From the IMG/VR virus record IMGVR_UViG_3300007734_000495, positions 1-23,599 of that record: a stretch of 23,599 nt of DNA, one strand, 5' to 3'. Source of the stretch: a virus. Of this stretch, positions 5,153 to 16,830 are shown one piece after another (position 1 is the first letter of the stretch; each line of letters starts with the position of its first letter). A program made the translations under genes and the position numbers. The notes below the pieces were generated by a model, which saw nothing but the letters and a program-made list of their open reading frames with translations, did not search any database and had not been told where the DNA came from.

Positions 5153-5515
5153 TTAAAAAGTCAGAGATGGGTGTCTCGGCGGAGAATAATCATCGTCGTC
5201 ATCATCTTCTTCATTGTCTTCTTCAATCTCTTCCTCTTCATCTGAGTCTACAAAGAATTCAGATTTCTGATATTCGAACTCTTTGCTGCGAGAGTTCAGG
5301 TCTTCGGAGAGGCACATGCCTGCGCAAAAACTTTCAGTAACAATTTCCGCGCAGTCAACGGCAGATCGAGCTTCGCCTTCAGGGGATACGCACTCTTGCA
5401 GGAGCTGATTGGATACCAGTAGAGCACAGATCTTGTCGAGTTTGGCATTGGAAACCATCAGTTGATCGAGGATTGACTTCTGAAACGCCTCGAATTTATG
5501 TGATCTGGATGACAT
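5153..5515 (-). CDS. Small protein with a long acidic C-terminal tail
   Basis: Unrecognised, 120 aa. Residues about 5-45 look helical with a heptad-like pattern (FEAFQKSILDQLMVSNAKLD). The C terminus is extremely acidic (EEEEIEEDNEEDDDDDDY, about 93-111) and ends in a short tail with terminal Phe (PSLTF). Acidic tails ending in an aromatic residue occur on phage and bacterial ssDNA-binding proteins, where they recruit partners. No OB fold is seen here, so an adaptor or DNA-mimic role is only a guess. Its ATG overlaps the stop of the upstream methyltransferase-like gene by one base (TAATG), giving translational coupling. Confidence 0.75.
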   Translation of the reverse strand: MSSRSHKFEAFQKSILDQLMVSNAKLDKICALLVSNQLLQECVSPEGEARSAVDCAEIVTESFCAGMCLSEDLNSRSKEFEYQKSEFFVDSDEEEEIEEDNEEDDDDDDYSPPRHPSLTF

Positions 5516-6054
5516 TACTCTAACGGCGGCAACGGATCAACGCGGTCCCAATCTAAGCCGAATGTCACTTGAGTGCCATCGCGCCAGGTTTCTGGGGTTT
5601 GGAATAAGAACCAGCAACTTGTTACTGAATCTCTAGTGCTACCCATTGCCCTAAACTTCGGGCGTGGGTTAAGAACAATCATATTGCTCAGTTTGTTCTT
5701 GAGTAAGAAAGTCTTTCGACGAGCCACGGGCTCAATGAACGAAAGGCGATCTAAAACTGCGATACCTTGAGTCGCAATTTGGATTCCGTATTCGAGAATG
5801 TATTCACTGTATTGAGGAAGCCCCATCGTGCAGGCAACCACCCAGTCGTATCCTTTTTGTTTTTCTGATACCCACCAAATAGGGTCGGTCAGGTTGCTTT
5901 CGTTTTCGTTTCGGATCACTGTGTAATTGTGAGACCGAAGCTGGTCGCTTAAGACGCCCAAAGGATCGTGCGGTACAAGAATTTTTCCTGTGATGTAACT
6001 GTGTTTTATCAACGCGTGAGTCACGCCGTTGGGGATGCTGTAAAAGTCGTCCAC
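5515..6054 (-). CDS. Degenerate adenine-methyltransferase-like protein
   Basis: 179 aa with the architecture of phage/cyanobacterial class I SAM DNA-methyltransferase-like proteins. KILVPHDPLGVLSDQL (24-39) sits where motif I should be, DWVVACTMGLPQYSEYI (70-86) where the catalytic (D/N)PPY should be, followed by VLDRLSFIEPVARR (100-113), NPRPKF (129-134) and SVTSCWFLFQ (143-152). The last three fit the family well. But the Gly-rich SAM loop is lost (HDPLG) and NPPY reads GLPQY, so methylation activity is doubtful. It may be a decoy or a structural or binding remnant kept by selection. The start is GTG at 6054, as the frame has a stop 10 codons upstream. It is the first gene of block A, divergent from nblA. 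Confidence 0.65.
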   Translation of the reverse strand: MDDFYSIPNGVTHALIKHSYITGKILVPHDPLGVLSDQLRSHNYTVIRNENESNLTDPIWWVSEKQKGYDWVVACTMGLPQYSEYILEYGIQIATQGIAVLDRLSFIEPVARRKTFLLKNKLSNMIVLNPRPKFRAMGSTRDSVTSCWFLFQTPETWRDGTQVTFGLDWDRVDPLPPLE

Positions 6055-6129
6055 TACCCGGGAGATCAGGGTTCGCTGAGCTTAGCCAGTCCCGACGGGC
6101 GCGTCCAGTAAATAGTGATTAGAGTAAAC

Positions 6130-6387
6130 ATGCACGCTCTAAAGATTATGTTAAATCTTGAGTGGTCTACGCCGGAGCAGAGTTTTATGCACCAGCGTGT
6201 AATGATGGATGCCAGAAAGCTCGATAAAGATGACCTGTTAGAGATTTTTGAAGCGATTCACCAGCAATATCAGCTCAAGGGTCATTTGTTTTCTCAGCTA
6301 GTTAAATGGTGCGTAAAGACTGGCGTAGAACTTCCGCCCTTTTCTGAGCTGTTAACACCCAAACAAGCTGATCACCCTTTGGAATAG
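6130..6387 (+). CDS. nblA: NblA-like phycobilisome degradation protein
   Basis: NblA is a small helical adaptor that binds phycobiliproteins and brings them to Clp protease, bleaching the antenna. Residues from TPEQSF through LFSQLVK align without gaps, over about 45 residues, to the NblA two-helix core as I remember it from Synechococcus and filamentous cyanobacteria. Matched positions include EQ.F, a Q then R/K, (V/A)R(K/D)(L/I), acidic residues then DL.(E/D).F, a central Q, and (L/I)F.. (L/M)(V/I)(K/R). A 23-25-residue tail (VELPPFSELL and beyond) is longer than usual for NblA. Starts are possible at GTG 6115, ATG 6130 (chosen, weak AGAG upstream) and ATG 6148; the last gives the most NblA-like N terminus. 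It is the only confident + strand gene amid minus-strand replication genes. Cyanophage nblA is known from Microcystis and Planktothrix phages. Confidence 0.75.
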   Translation: MHALKIMLNLEWSTPEQSFMHQRVMMDARKLDKDDLLEIFEAIHQQYQLKGHLFSQLVKWCVKTGVELPPFSELLTPKQADHPLE

Positions 6388-6760: not shown

Positions 6761-7582
6761 TCAGAACTCAAGACCAAGTGCTTTAGCTTGTTCTTCAGTG
6801 AGCTCCACTGCTTTCTTAGTTTTTGGCGAAGGCGGAGGGTTGTCCTCAGAATCATCAGCCACATCAGCAGCCTTAAGACTCTTGCTAGGAACATTAGCTG
6901 AAGGTAAAGACCGCTCAGCCGGCGTCCCACGCGTCGCAGCAAACTGGGCCTTGATCTCCGTGTGATCTGACCCAAGAGGTAGCTCAACCAAATCCGATCC
7001 AGGAATGTGAGACTTGAGTGCCGCTGTGATGAGCGTCGCGCCTTTGTCGGAAAGCCAAGCATTCACATCCTCGATTAAGTTGGTTTCTTCGTCGTTCGCT
7101 GCAGGGCGATCGGCGAATTCAAGTGCGTTGAAGTTGATCTTTGCTCCGTCTGCCCCAGTTATGGGGTCGCGCTCGTTAAAGCTGCGGGTCACAAACTTAG
7201 ACGCTGTGATCACGGAAGCACAGTTAATCCTGTTGTTGAACAGGGTTTGGAAGTAACTGATGAAATTCTTTTGGGATGATTTCCCGGAGATCATCGAAGT
7301 CGTCACACACCGAGGAGGAAGCAGCCTGTGGTTAGGGCTGACACCTACATAAGCGATGCGTAAAAACTCTTCTTGATTACGGAGTCCCAGGTTACCAAAG
7401 TAGGGGGTGAAACCTAAAAGGATAAACTCAATGGGTATACCGTTATCGTTTTTGTCTACAATTGCGCTGTCAGGATCCACATCGGATTTCCAACGGCGAG
7501 CTTGAAGATCGATACGTAGCGTGTGCGGCGGAACATTACAGAGAATTTCGTCCGCAGAAAATTGGCCGGCGATAAAAACCAT
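6761..7582 (-). CDS. Unknown protein downstream of ssb
   Basis: 273 aa, not recognised. The first two thirds look like a folded domain (segments IPIEFILLGFTPYFGNLGL, SYFQTLFNNRI). Residues about 215-260 are low complexity and acidic (DVADDSEDNPPPSP), and the protein ends in a helix with terminal Phe (EQAKALGLEF). It lies 9 bases after the SSB stop, in the same operon. The tail composition and position suggest a DNA-binding or recombination-mediator partner of SSB, which is inference only. A 103-aa ORF in another frame here is a shadow. Confidence 0.75.
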   Translation of the reverse strand: MVFIAGQFSADEILCNVPPHTLRIDLQARRWKSDVDPDSAIVDKNDNGIPIEFILLGFTPYFGNLGLRNQEEFLRIAYVGVSPNHRLLPPRCVTTSMISGKSSQKNFISYFQTLFNNRINCASVITASKFVTRSFNERDPITGADGAKINFNALEFADRPAANDEETNLIEDVNAWLSDKGATLITAALKSHIPGSDLVELPLGSDHTEIKAQFAATRGTPAERSLPSANVPSKSLKAADVADDSEDNPPPSPKTKKAVELTEEQAKALGLEF

Positions 7583-13906: not shown

Positions 13907-15457
13907 TTACCTCAAGCATCTCTGAATCGCATCTACGGTTACGTCAGGGTTATATAGATTGACCGAGTAGAGTTCGTCACTAAACGTCCGGCAAACATCG
14001 GGGATGTCGGTGTTGATGCAGACTGTGCTCCACTGCACGCCATTTGTTTGCTTGAATGAATTTAAACGCCTAATGAAGTTATCATGAACATCGCTGTGCC
14101 CATCTGTGATCATCAATACATCAGCTCGCTCTGAAATTTTAGCCTTGTCTAAGGCGTGGGCTAACACTGCGTTAAAACTCGTGCCGCCTCCGAGAGTCCA
14201 CGTGCAAACAAAATCAATCAGTTGTGCGTTGTCCTTACGATCTTTCTGGAGTTTTACAGACCCGTTTATTTGAGTGTCGAAGAGGTGAATCTGAATCTCG
14301 CGGTTTTGTTTGAGGGCTTCTTCAGCGATCACAAAAGCAATCGCCTTGCTCCACACCTCAGTCTCCCCGTGCATCGAACCGGATACGTCCACATACATCA
14401 CGATGGGTCCTTTGCCGATGTCGCGCCGCGTGGACGTGTAATCCTTTGTCAGCAGAGTTTTCTGTGAGTACTTGAGTGCAAATAGTGCGCTTCCTTCTGG
14501 GCTTGCTGCCAACGCAACTTCAGCAGGGAATGCTTTAGTTACGTCATCGCCGAACCGGGCGCCAGTGATTGATTCGTACGTGTCGCGGGTTTTCCGAGCT
14601 TTCTTACGCTCGTGCCAAATCTTACGGAGCGCTCCAAGTTTCTGTGTGAGTTTCTTTAACTCTTTGTTCTTACGAAGTTTCTCCGCGAGTTTCTTCTTAG
14701 CTTCGAGATCGGCAGCGTGTTTGCCTGCTCCAGAACTATCCCCGTGGAGATTACTGATAGCTTCGTTTACCTCATCGTTTTCCTCAAGAGCTTTATCGAC
14801 AATTTTGTGTGACTGACTTTGAATTTTGTTCTTCGCTTCCTGAATAGCTTCGTTGATTGCTTGCCCTAGTCTCTTACCTTCTGCTCGAATCTTTTCGGCT
14901 TGTTGTTTGTCTCCGTTTTCTACTGCTTTTTGATACTGCTCACGTAACTCCTGCAGCTTTTGATCTGCCGAAGTTAAAAGCTGTACGTCAAACTGTCCGC
15001 TTTCGATTGCCTGCTCAATAACTTTCGACAGTTCGTTGATGATGTTTACCGCATTATTACCTGCGTTGAATTGATCGCCGACTGATCTGCGAATGAGCTC
15101 AGGCCACGCAGCAGCTTGGCTCATGTCGCTCATGATTGAATACCAAATGCCGTTCTCGGGTTTGTAACCCTCAGGCAGTGCAGCCGAATCTCCGTCGCAA
15201 ACTTTACGAAAGTAATCTTCGTATGCGTCTTCAGTCACCAACCACTGCACATTGTCAGCACTATAAAGACGCTCGAAGATCTCCTTGCCAAAACGCGAAA
15301 GTTGTTTGATGTTGTAGTGGTCGATTAAATACGTGACAATCGGACGCGCGTCGCGAATAAAATCCTGCCATAGAAAATCTGCAAGAGCTGAGCAAGCGAG
15401 TGTCAGGGGCTCGTTGTCTACAATCCGGATAATCTCAGAATGCGTTGTCGTGTTCAT
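13907..15457 (-). CDS. VWA (MIDAS) protein, ViaA/CoxE-like
   Basis: 516 aa. The C-terminal third is a von Willebrand A domain with a complete metal-ion site: DVSGS (D357, S359, S361), GGTSFN (T426) and ITDG (D452), surrounded by typical strands (PIVMYVD, IQIHLFDT, ADVLMIT). The N-terminal 150 residues are helical, and residues about 160-295 form long charged coiled coil (QKLQELREQYQKAVENGDKQ and the lysine-rich ELKKLTQKL region). This order, helical N terminus, coil, C-terminal VWA, matches ViaA and related partners of MoxR ATPases. Such VWA proteins bind the AAA+ ring and a target through the MIDAS. It follows the 77-aa and MoxR-like genes with overlapping ends. A CobT-like identity is possible but less likely given the partner. 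Confidence 0.85.
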   Translation of the reverse strand: MNTTTHSEIIRIVDNEPLTLACSALADFLWQDFIRDARPIVTYLIDHYNIKQLSRFGKEIFERLYSADNVQWLVTEDAYEDYFRKVCDGDSAALPEGYKPENGIWYSIMSDMSQAAAWPELIRRSVGDQFNAGNNAVNIINELSKVIEQAIESGQFDVQLLTSADQKLQELREQYQKAVENGDKQQAEKIRAEGKRLGQAINEAIQEAKNKIQSQSHKIVDKALEENDEVNEAISNLHGDSSGAGKHAADLEAKKKLAEKLRKNKELKKLTQKLGALRKIWHERKKARKTRDTYESITGARFGDDVTKAFPAEVALAASPEGSALFALKYSQKTLLTKDYTSTRRDIGKGPIVMYVDVSGSMHGETEVWSKAIAFVIAEEALKQNREIQIHLFDTQINGSVKLQKDRKDNAQLIDFVCTWTLGGGTSFNAVLAHALDKAKISERADVLMITDGHSDVHDNFIRRLNSFKQTNGVQWSTVCINTDIPDVCRTFSDELYSVNLYNPDVTVDAIQRCLR

Positions 15458-15668
15458 GTTGATTTATAGGGTAGAAACGAAGTAATTGAATCTTTTTCTC
15501 CTCCACAAGATGCGCGGAGGAGACCGTGGCAACAATACCTGACTTCAGGATCACATGATAACAATCGTTACCGTTGTGATCCTGTTCGTACTTAACTGCT
15601 ACACCGTCGGCGTCGAAGTCTGTTTCAGTGAGTTCGAAACGGTCAGCTACTAATGTCGCTGATTGCAC
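15435..15668 (-). CDS. Unknown 77-aa protein between the ATPase and VWA genes
   Basis: It starts at GTG 15668, overlapping the ATPase by 26 bases, and ends 23 bases inside the VWA gene. The sequence suggests a small beta barrel (VAVKYEQDHNGNDCYHVILK, then GIVATVSSAHLV). No family is recognised. Double overlap with both partners suggests a dedicated subunit or expression coupler of the machine. The long overlaps argue that the frame is real, but the GTG start is uncertain. Confidence 0.62.
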   Translation of the reverse strand: MQSATLVADRFELTETDFDADGVAVKYEQDHNGNDCYHVILKSGIVATVSSAHLVEEKKIQLLRFYPINQHEHDNAF

Positions 15669-16830
15669 GGGCCAAGGTGTCGCAGTGGTTTTGTAGATTC
15701 TGCTGGAGTTTCACACCTGATGCCCGTGTTGTCACGGACATTCGGAATCGAGTGCCATCCAGAATCTCCCCTACTTTATCGCGAACAGTCTGCATGTCTT
15801 TGTGATACTTGCGGAGATTAACCACAAAATCATTTAAATCGCCCAGACCTTTGGCTTTGTATTTGTGGGAGTGAGCCGTGTACTCCGCCATAATTCCAGC
15901 AGCAGCTCGCTTGGCATCGTTAAATACCCGATCCGCTGTGGGAATTTCCTGCTCAAGAACCTCTTTAATAGTGTCTTGATCTTCCCGAGTCTGGTACACG
16001 ATGTGAATCAGACTGTTATGGAGATGCTCTGCATACAGTTCGTCATCACCTTGCACCAAAGCCCAGGCTTTGAGGAATTTTAGAATCTGTACTCGACGAC
16101 GATCACTGATCGTGATGTTGCGACTGGCCAACATCTCCCAGACATTGCTAAAGCGATCTAGAAACTCTTCCGATACGGTTATGTCGTTCGCTGCTTGCTG
16201 CAGTTGCTGCAGTTCTTTCAGCGTTAGGTGGTCACCTACTTCAGGGCGCACAACCAAACCTAAAGCCCACTCATCGAGCTTACGTTTGGATACTGGTTTC
16301 TTTAGAACATCAACCGTGGGTCGGAACAGGAATCGATCCGCAAATGCTTGCAACGATTCTTCGTCGGGCCAACTGTTTGTCGCAGCAACAATGGATTGAA
16401 TAGGCGTTTCGACAACAGTTTTACCGTTGTTAAAGGTGCGTTCGTTCAGCAGCGTTAGCAGAGAGTTCAGGATTGCCGAACTACCTCTAAAGAGCTCATC
16501 CAGGAAACCAATGTGAGCGTCTGGCAGGTAACCAGTAATGTCTCTCGTGTATTCATCTTTCAGCAGTTTGGTAACTGCTACGGGACCGAACACCTCAGAG
16601 GGATCCGTTGTCGGTGTCAGCAAATAACCGAAATAATTCGCACCGTTAATACCTCTGCAGATATTACGGACTAAATCAGATTTGCCGGTGCCAGGAACCC
16701 CAAGCAAAAAAGCGTTTTGCTTGCTTAGAAGTGTCGCTAACAAACCGTCGATAACAAACTCACGCTCCAACGTGGAGGCGTTAAGTGCGCCACGAAAGTT
16801 TTGTAGCTTGGTGAACAAGGTGTCGTTCAT
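15643..16830 (-). CDS. MoxR/RavA-like AAA+ ATPase
   Basis: 395 aa. Walker A GVPGTGKSDL (44-53), the MoxR-type segment LLTPTTDPSEVFGPVAV (70-86) and GYLPDAHIGFLDELFRGSS (100-118, with Walker B D111/E112), then ILNSLLTLLNERTFNNG (120-136), sensor 1 AATNSWP (149-155), the DR of an arginine region (165-166) and sensor 2 ISDRRRVQILKFLKAWAL (241-258). The spacing closely follows E. coli RavA, including the STPEEVFGP-like motif. A helical C-terminal region (270-395) is extra. MoxR proteins act as chaperone-like remodelling machines with VWA partners, and a VWA gene follows two positions downstream. CobS is the main alternative, but the RavA-specific segments favour RavA-like. Confidence 0.88.
   Translation of the reverse strand: MNDTLFTKLQNFRGALNASTLEREFVIDGLLATLLSKQNAFLLGVPGTGKSDLVRNICRGINGANYFGYLLTPTTDPSEVFGPVAVTKLLKDEYTRDITGYLPDAHIGFLDELFRGSSAILNSLLTLLNERTFNNGKTVVETPIQSIVAATNSWPDEESLQAFADRFLFRPTVDVLKKPVSKRKLDEWALGLVVRPEVGDHLTLKELQQLQQAANDITVSEEFLDRFSNVWEMLASRNITISDRRRVQILKFLKAWALVQGDDELYAEHLHNSLIHIVYQTREDQDTIKEVLEQEIPTADRVFNDAKRAAAGIMAEYTAHSHKYKAKGLGDLNDFVVNLRKYHKDMQTVRDKVGEILDGTRFRMSVTTRASGVKLQQNLQNHCDTLARAISDISS

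Follow-up and report, generated by a model that had tools for sequence, protein, structure and literature searches.

A putative divergent NblA homologue is a core gene of S-EIV1-like cyanophages

Introduction

In cyanobacteria, the protein NblA causes cells to break down their light-harvesting antennae. Antenna breakdown through a phage-encoded NblA is known from a few phage groups, and the gene is usually viewed as an optional auxiliary one. A stretch of 23,599 nucleotides of viral DNA (IMG/VR record IMGVR_UViG_3300007734_000495, positions 1 to 23,599; hereafter the window) contains a small open reading frame for which an initial annotation, made from the letters alone, proposed such a gene: an nblA with an extended C terminus, acquired as a moron. 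Is the encoded protein related to NblA, how did its gene come to stand where it does and what may it do to the host?

Results

A small gene on the plus strand, conserved across relatives

The open frame extends on the plus strand from a GTG at 6115 to 6387, with ATG codons at 6130 and 6148. Relatives gathered from IMG/VR by three routes (the protein itself, its alignment, and a gene next to it that served as neutral bait) yielded 48 distinct variants of the family. In one relative (L093) a stop codon immediately precedes the ATG equivalent to 6148, in another (L010) an in-frame TAA lies shortly upstream of the residues ALKIM, and the close upstream region of a third (L090) is devoid of any start codon. 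Because of these stops and the missing start, we rejected the GTG at 6115 and the ATG at 6130, from which the gene had previously been taken to begin. The coding sequence most likely runs from 6148 to 6387 and encodes the 79-residue protein MLNLEWSTPEQSFMHQRVMMDARKLDKDDLLEIFEAIHQQYQLKGHLFSQLVKWCVKTGVELPPFSELLTPKQADHPLE. The conservation of the frame in 48 distinct variants, together with a whole-gene dN/dS of 0.03-0.16 (variants with unsaturated synonymous sites), identifies it as a genuine coding gene and not a chance open frame. As initially described, it is the sole plus-strand gene between two minus-strand blocks. The features of the locus are as follows.

5515..6054, minus strand: upstream divergent neighbour, in part DNA methyltransferase-like (phrog_799, E 2.5e-6, over residues 83-157); the same neighbour occurs in relatives
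6055..6147, no strand assigned: divergent intergenic region that contains a conserved GAGCTTAGC block (6078-6086), present ahead of the gene in most sublineages
6148..6387, plus strand: nblA-like coding sequence, its start placed by the relatives' upstream stops or missing start
6166..6306, plus strand: NblA core, residues 7-53, with helix 1 (9-22), a turn and helix 2 (27-58, extending beyond the core), delimited by gap-free profile alignment, AlphaFold and E10/Q11/F13/Q40
6307..6384, plus strand: conserved C-terminal extension, residues 54-79 (WC...LPxFxELL...HP), with invariant residues
6302..6718, minus strand: convergent neighbour with no function assigned and no Pfam match, conserved in many relatives and undetected in others
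6761..7582, minus strand: conserved neighbour of 273 residues with no Pfam or PHROGs match, used as presence/absence bait

The GAGCTTAGC block, placed at 6078-6086 or more broadly at 6070-6087, may be a promoter, an operator or another regulatory site. Since the window holds a single exact copy, we discarded the idea of a phage-wide promoter, and the block would at most be specific to this gene. At the nblA-like gene, a search for sigma-70 sites gave nothing better than chance. The product of the divergent neighbour at 5515-6054 has 179 residues and covers only residues 296-370 of the 458-residue phrog_799 phage DNA methyltransferase profile; it is possibly a reduced or repurposed methyltransferase fragment. 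Elsewhere in the window (13907-16830, minus strand), a gene for a MoxR-type AAA+ ATPase (bpMoxR 182.7 bits) adjoins a gene for a VWA-domain protein, which matches just four entries of the cultured-phage collection.

Distant homology to NblA emerges at the level of the family

The similarity to NblA had been presented as a gap-free match of this one protein. Searched alone, the window protein has no match to the Pfam NblA model (PF04485), nor did this one sequence give a usable match in Pfam, in PHROGs or in a tblastn search of phages. Since the single sequence has no Pfam match, the relationship is significant at the family level only. Scanned singly, 26 of 44 family members match PF04485 at E<=1, although these members are related and so do not count as independent tests. 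The best of them, L152 (1.3e-5, 26.0 bits), is the one among the eight best members rescanned that exceeds the curated cut-off of 25 bits.

When the family profile was compared with 177,635 PDB sequences, ranks 1 and 2 were taken by two NblA crystal structures, 3cs5 (E 0.0095) and 1ojh (E 0.38); both alignments are gap-free. A profile of ten members retrieved 3cs5 alone among NblA structures, at E 0.49. Aligned by hhalign to a profile of 33 cyanobacterial NblA-profile hits, the family scores 31.9, against 18.1 for the best of 300 column-shuffled decoys, and this score grew from 26.4 as more members were added to the family. Over residues 6-53 the alignment to NblA is free of gaps, at 19% identity, so the gap-free part of the original claim holds. 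At zero offset, E10, Q11, F13 and Q40 occupy positions that both families keep invariant or almost invariant; any other offset between -12 and +12 yields at most two such coincidences. The family profile also recovers a genuine host NblA in contig G042 (E 6e-4), at the place where PF04485 gives about 2e-17. Two other similarities, to DUF4158 (best 0.0029) and to Tn3 transposase (best 0.016), are weaker than that to NblA and were taken as chance. Taken together, distant homology to NblA is well supported by profile comparison of the family.

A predicted two-helix fold

The NblA dimer is an open four-helix bundle. AlphaFold modelled the window protein weakly from a 21-member alignment (pLDDT 63); a 44-member alignment gave a mean pLDDT of 85, with helices at residues 9-22 and 27-58 and a short one at 65-68. 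The protein is thus predicted to form a helix-turn-helix, as had been anticipated, in agreement with the helix-loop-helix fold of NblA (PMC7966870). A Foldseek search of the PDB with this very small hairpin, run without a positive control, returned no match and no NblA structure, and a search of BFVD returned nothing useful.

The C-terminal extension is conserved and NblA positions are lost

The protein was originally credited with about 25 extra C-terminal residues. A conserved extension is indeed present: W54, C55, L62, P63 and L68 are invariant in the family and H76-P77 occurs in about 92% of it. The net gain is smaller, about 15 residues, since 26 residues follow the core here and about 10-13 follow it in canonical and host NblA. 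Matches of the WCaRngviLPxF segment to R2D2 in the PDB (about 13 bits over 18 residues) were taken as chance.

The last 86 bp of the coding sequence are shared with the 3' end of the convergent gene, and the extension might be read as mere overprinting of that end. However, sublineages in which a homologue of the convergent gene was not detected also have the extension; we therefore rejected that reading, and the extension is probably under selection of its own. Residues typical of host NblA are missing from the same region. Lysine 53 is found in 97% of host NblA proteins and its column is unconserved in the phage family, the window protein having K53 by chance of sequence; the W-G pair equivalent to host W56-G57 is absent, and its positions too are unconserved in the phage family. 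The C-terminus of NblA reportedly makes its contact with the phycobilisome (PMC7760959), so this end of the protein is where function could differ.

An old gene fixed at one site

The initial annotation took the gene for a moron-type auxiliary gene that runs counter to the replication genes. A lone gene whose strand differs from that of its neighbours does fit a recent acquisition of nblA from a host. All 53 contigs found through the nblA-like gene agree in its neighbours and in its orientation. As these contigs had been chosen for carrying the gene, we repeated the presence test with the neighbour at 6761-7582 as bait. This gene is a good marker of the lineage, with 418 relatives in IMG/VR. 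Among the best 80 of the 418, 72 contigs extend as far as the site and the nblA-like gene is present in all 72; the other 8 stop before it. Identical site and strand in every relative reaching the site speak against a recent insertion, as do an ordinary G+C content (0.438 versus 0.466; 25th percentile of the window) and the searches of 386 and 292 cyanobacterial genomes, in which no close copy was found.

Phylogeny argues in the same direction. When 90 sequences were placed in one tree, the 48 phage variants grouped together as a single clade with support 98/97, and the stem leading to it measured 3.1 changes per site. This clade stands apart from the host, Ma-LMM01 and late-module NblA sequences, in place of the nesting among cyanophage copies that had been foreseen; the all-NblA tree rests on 50 columns, which leave the deep order unsettled. 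We consider a recent moron highly improbable. Judged from its site, composition and phylogeny, the gene is an old, fixed core gene of the S-EIV1-like cyanophage lineage.

Kinship to S-EIV1 and the likely host

There is no terminase gene within the 23.6-kb window. The terminase encoded by an 87-kb relative (G005) is, across its entire length, 52% identical to its counterpart in Synechococcus phage S-EIV1. Window proteins also resemble those of S-EIV1 (ThyX 42%, exonuclease 38% and primase 29% identity), and the window DNA polymerase has its best matches in Pseudanabaena phages, at 27%. S-EIV1 itself has no member of the window's nblA-like family, and the host markers psbA and high-light-inducible genes were not found in 14 relatives. 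By its gene similarities, the window phage belongs with the S-EIV1-like cyanophages. The earlier expectation of a phycobilisome-bearing host thus gains support from kinship, which makes such a host likely.

A second NblA-like gene in the late module

Larger relatives have a second NblA-like open reading frame, in the late module (contigs G002, G005, G401-G406 and G409). It adjoins a conserved open reading frame of 82 residues and, in most contigs, also a transglycosylase/M23 gene. Each copy below matches NblA weakly.

L015 1459-1710, plus strand: late NblA-like open reading frame (LTLEDEFVLTRIRTKAHSL..., very conserved)
L016 1432-1683, minus strand: late NblA-like open reading frame
Loci L228, L231, L232, L234, L236, L237 and L238, strand not stated: late NblA-like open reading frame

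The late proteins score 14.5-18.9 bits with Pfam NblA, under the cut-off. Both NblA-like genes are present in all seven contigs of at least 75 kb, the one in the replication module being counted by the family profile. Since the 23.6-kb window ends without a late module, the second gene is known for relatives and not for the window. Against host NblA the late profile reaches 24.8, with its decoys at 18.7 or less; against the window family it reaches 11.9, a value lower than that of decoys. The two families could not be aligned and are therefore not recent duplicates.

S-EIV1 has a gene of this kind as well (KJ410740.1 73902-74222; L219 33902-34222). Its product, AHV82245.1, is annotated as hypothetical and scores 16.3 bits with Pfam NblA; the gene lies downstream of a relative of the 82-residue open reading frame and adjoins a lysozyme gene. 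A 2017 survey did not list nblA for the S-EIV1 group (PMC5332604).

Discussion

We consider the gene, with fair confidence, to be a divergent NblA homologue that encodes a small two-helix protein, belongs to the core genes of S-EIV1-like Synechococcus phages and would act as a ClpC adaptor in phycobilisome breakdown. NblA bridges the phycobilisome and ClpC, delivering phycobilisome proteins to ClpC (PMC7966870), and expression of phage NblAs of other groups in cyanobacteria leads to phycobilin loss (PMC9602691). By analogy, a ClpC adaptor that triggers phycobilisome breakdown is the most likely function, and antenna breakdown by the phage protein is plausible. During infection the protein would dimerise, and the dimer would bind phycobilisome subunits and the host ClpC chaperone so that antenna proteins could be passed to the Clp protease. 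During phage replication, their breakdown would free amino acids and lower light input. The extension may supply or adjust one of these contacts, replacing the K53/W56-G57 end of cyanobacterial NblA.

The main rival reading keeps the NblA ancestry and changes the target: the core would still be a Clp adaptor, and the WC...LPxFxELL...HP module would recruit another host or phage protein for degradation. The loss of host K53 and W56-G57, with a strongly conserved new module instead, fits such a change, and in the large relatives the second NblA-like gene could handle the antennae. Nevertheless, other divergent phage NblAs still cause phycobilin loss (PMC9602691) and no alternative target is known, so that we regard retargeting as unlikely. 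Still less probable is that an unrelated small helical-hairpin protein of the phage came to resemble NblA by convergence. The weak single-sequence match, the weak DUF4158 and Tn3 transposase matches (0.0029 and 0.016) and the lack of an NblA structure among the Foldseek results would all suit convergence. Against it, NblA outscores all other families in both Pfam and the PDB, the signal rises with the breadth of the family, and decoys fail to match.

Returning to the reading of the gene as an NblA-type adaptor, its occurrence in large relatives together with a late-module counterpart invites a further, speculative suggestion. The title of reference 38 in PMC7966870 describes Synechocystis NblA1/NblA2 as a heterodimer, which makes a phage pair of NblA-like proteins conceivable. 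Two adaptors that are not recent duplicates, one from the replication module and one from the late module, might act as a heterodimer or as an early/late relay in which the extended one, with a new targeting module, directs the host Clp protease towards a further substrate, in place of phycobilisomes or besides them. We offer this as a tentative idea, somewhat doubtful as it stands.

An NblA relative is present in every tested member of a widespread S-EIV1-like lineage, whose neighbour gene at 6761-7582 is encoded by the 418 IMG/VR contigs. Its presence in all relatives tested, together with the second companion in 7/7 contigs of at least 75 kb, suggests that hijack of Clp-dependent proteolysis may be basic to the replication of these phages. 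Core status and the second NblA-like gene add to the interest of the system, and part of it is directly testable since S-EIV1 is an isolated phage with an unannotated late-module NblA-like gene.

One of the closest known systems is cyanobacterial NblA itself (PF04485; 3cs5, 1ojh), with which the window family shares an ungapped two-helix core that has E10, Q11, F13 and Q40 in register. It differs from cyanobacterial NblA in being about 19% identical, in not keeping K53 and W56-G57, and in its roughly 15 extra C-terminal residues. The late-module genes (L015, L016) and S-EIV1 AHV82245.1 are likewise weak NblA matches from the same or related genomes, whereas their family is a separate clade at another locus and has no WC...LP extension. 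In the freshwater cyanophages Ma-LMM01 and MaMV-DC, NblA is likewise phage-encoded; unlike the window protein, the Ma-LMM01 protein is of the canonical type, with 51.8 bits in Pfam and 40.7% identity to a host NblA, and it lacks the extension. The marine cyanophage NblAs called by remote homology, S-SCSM1 ORF237 and the group of Nadel et al. (PMC9602691), are also divergent and recognised only by sensitive profile methods. The S-SCSM1 NblA has 54 residues and no extension; with the host profile it reaches 0.2 bits, whereas the window family reaches up to 17.4.
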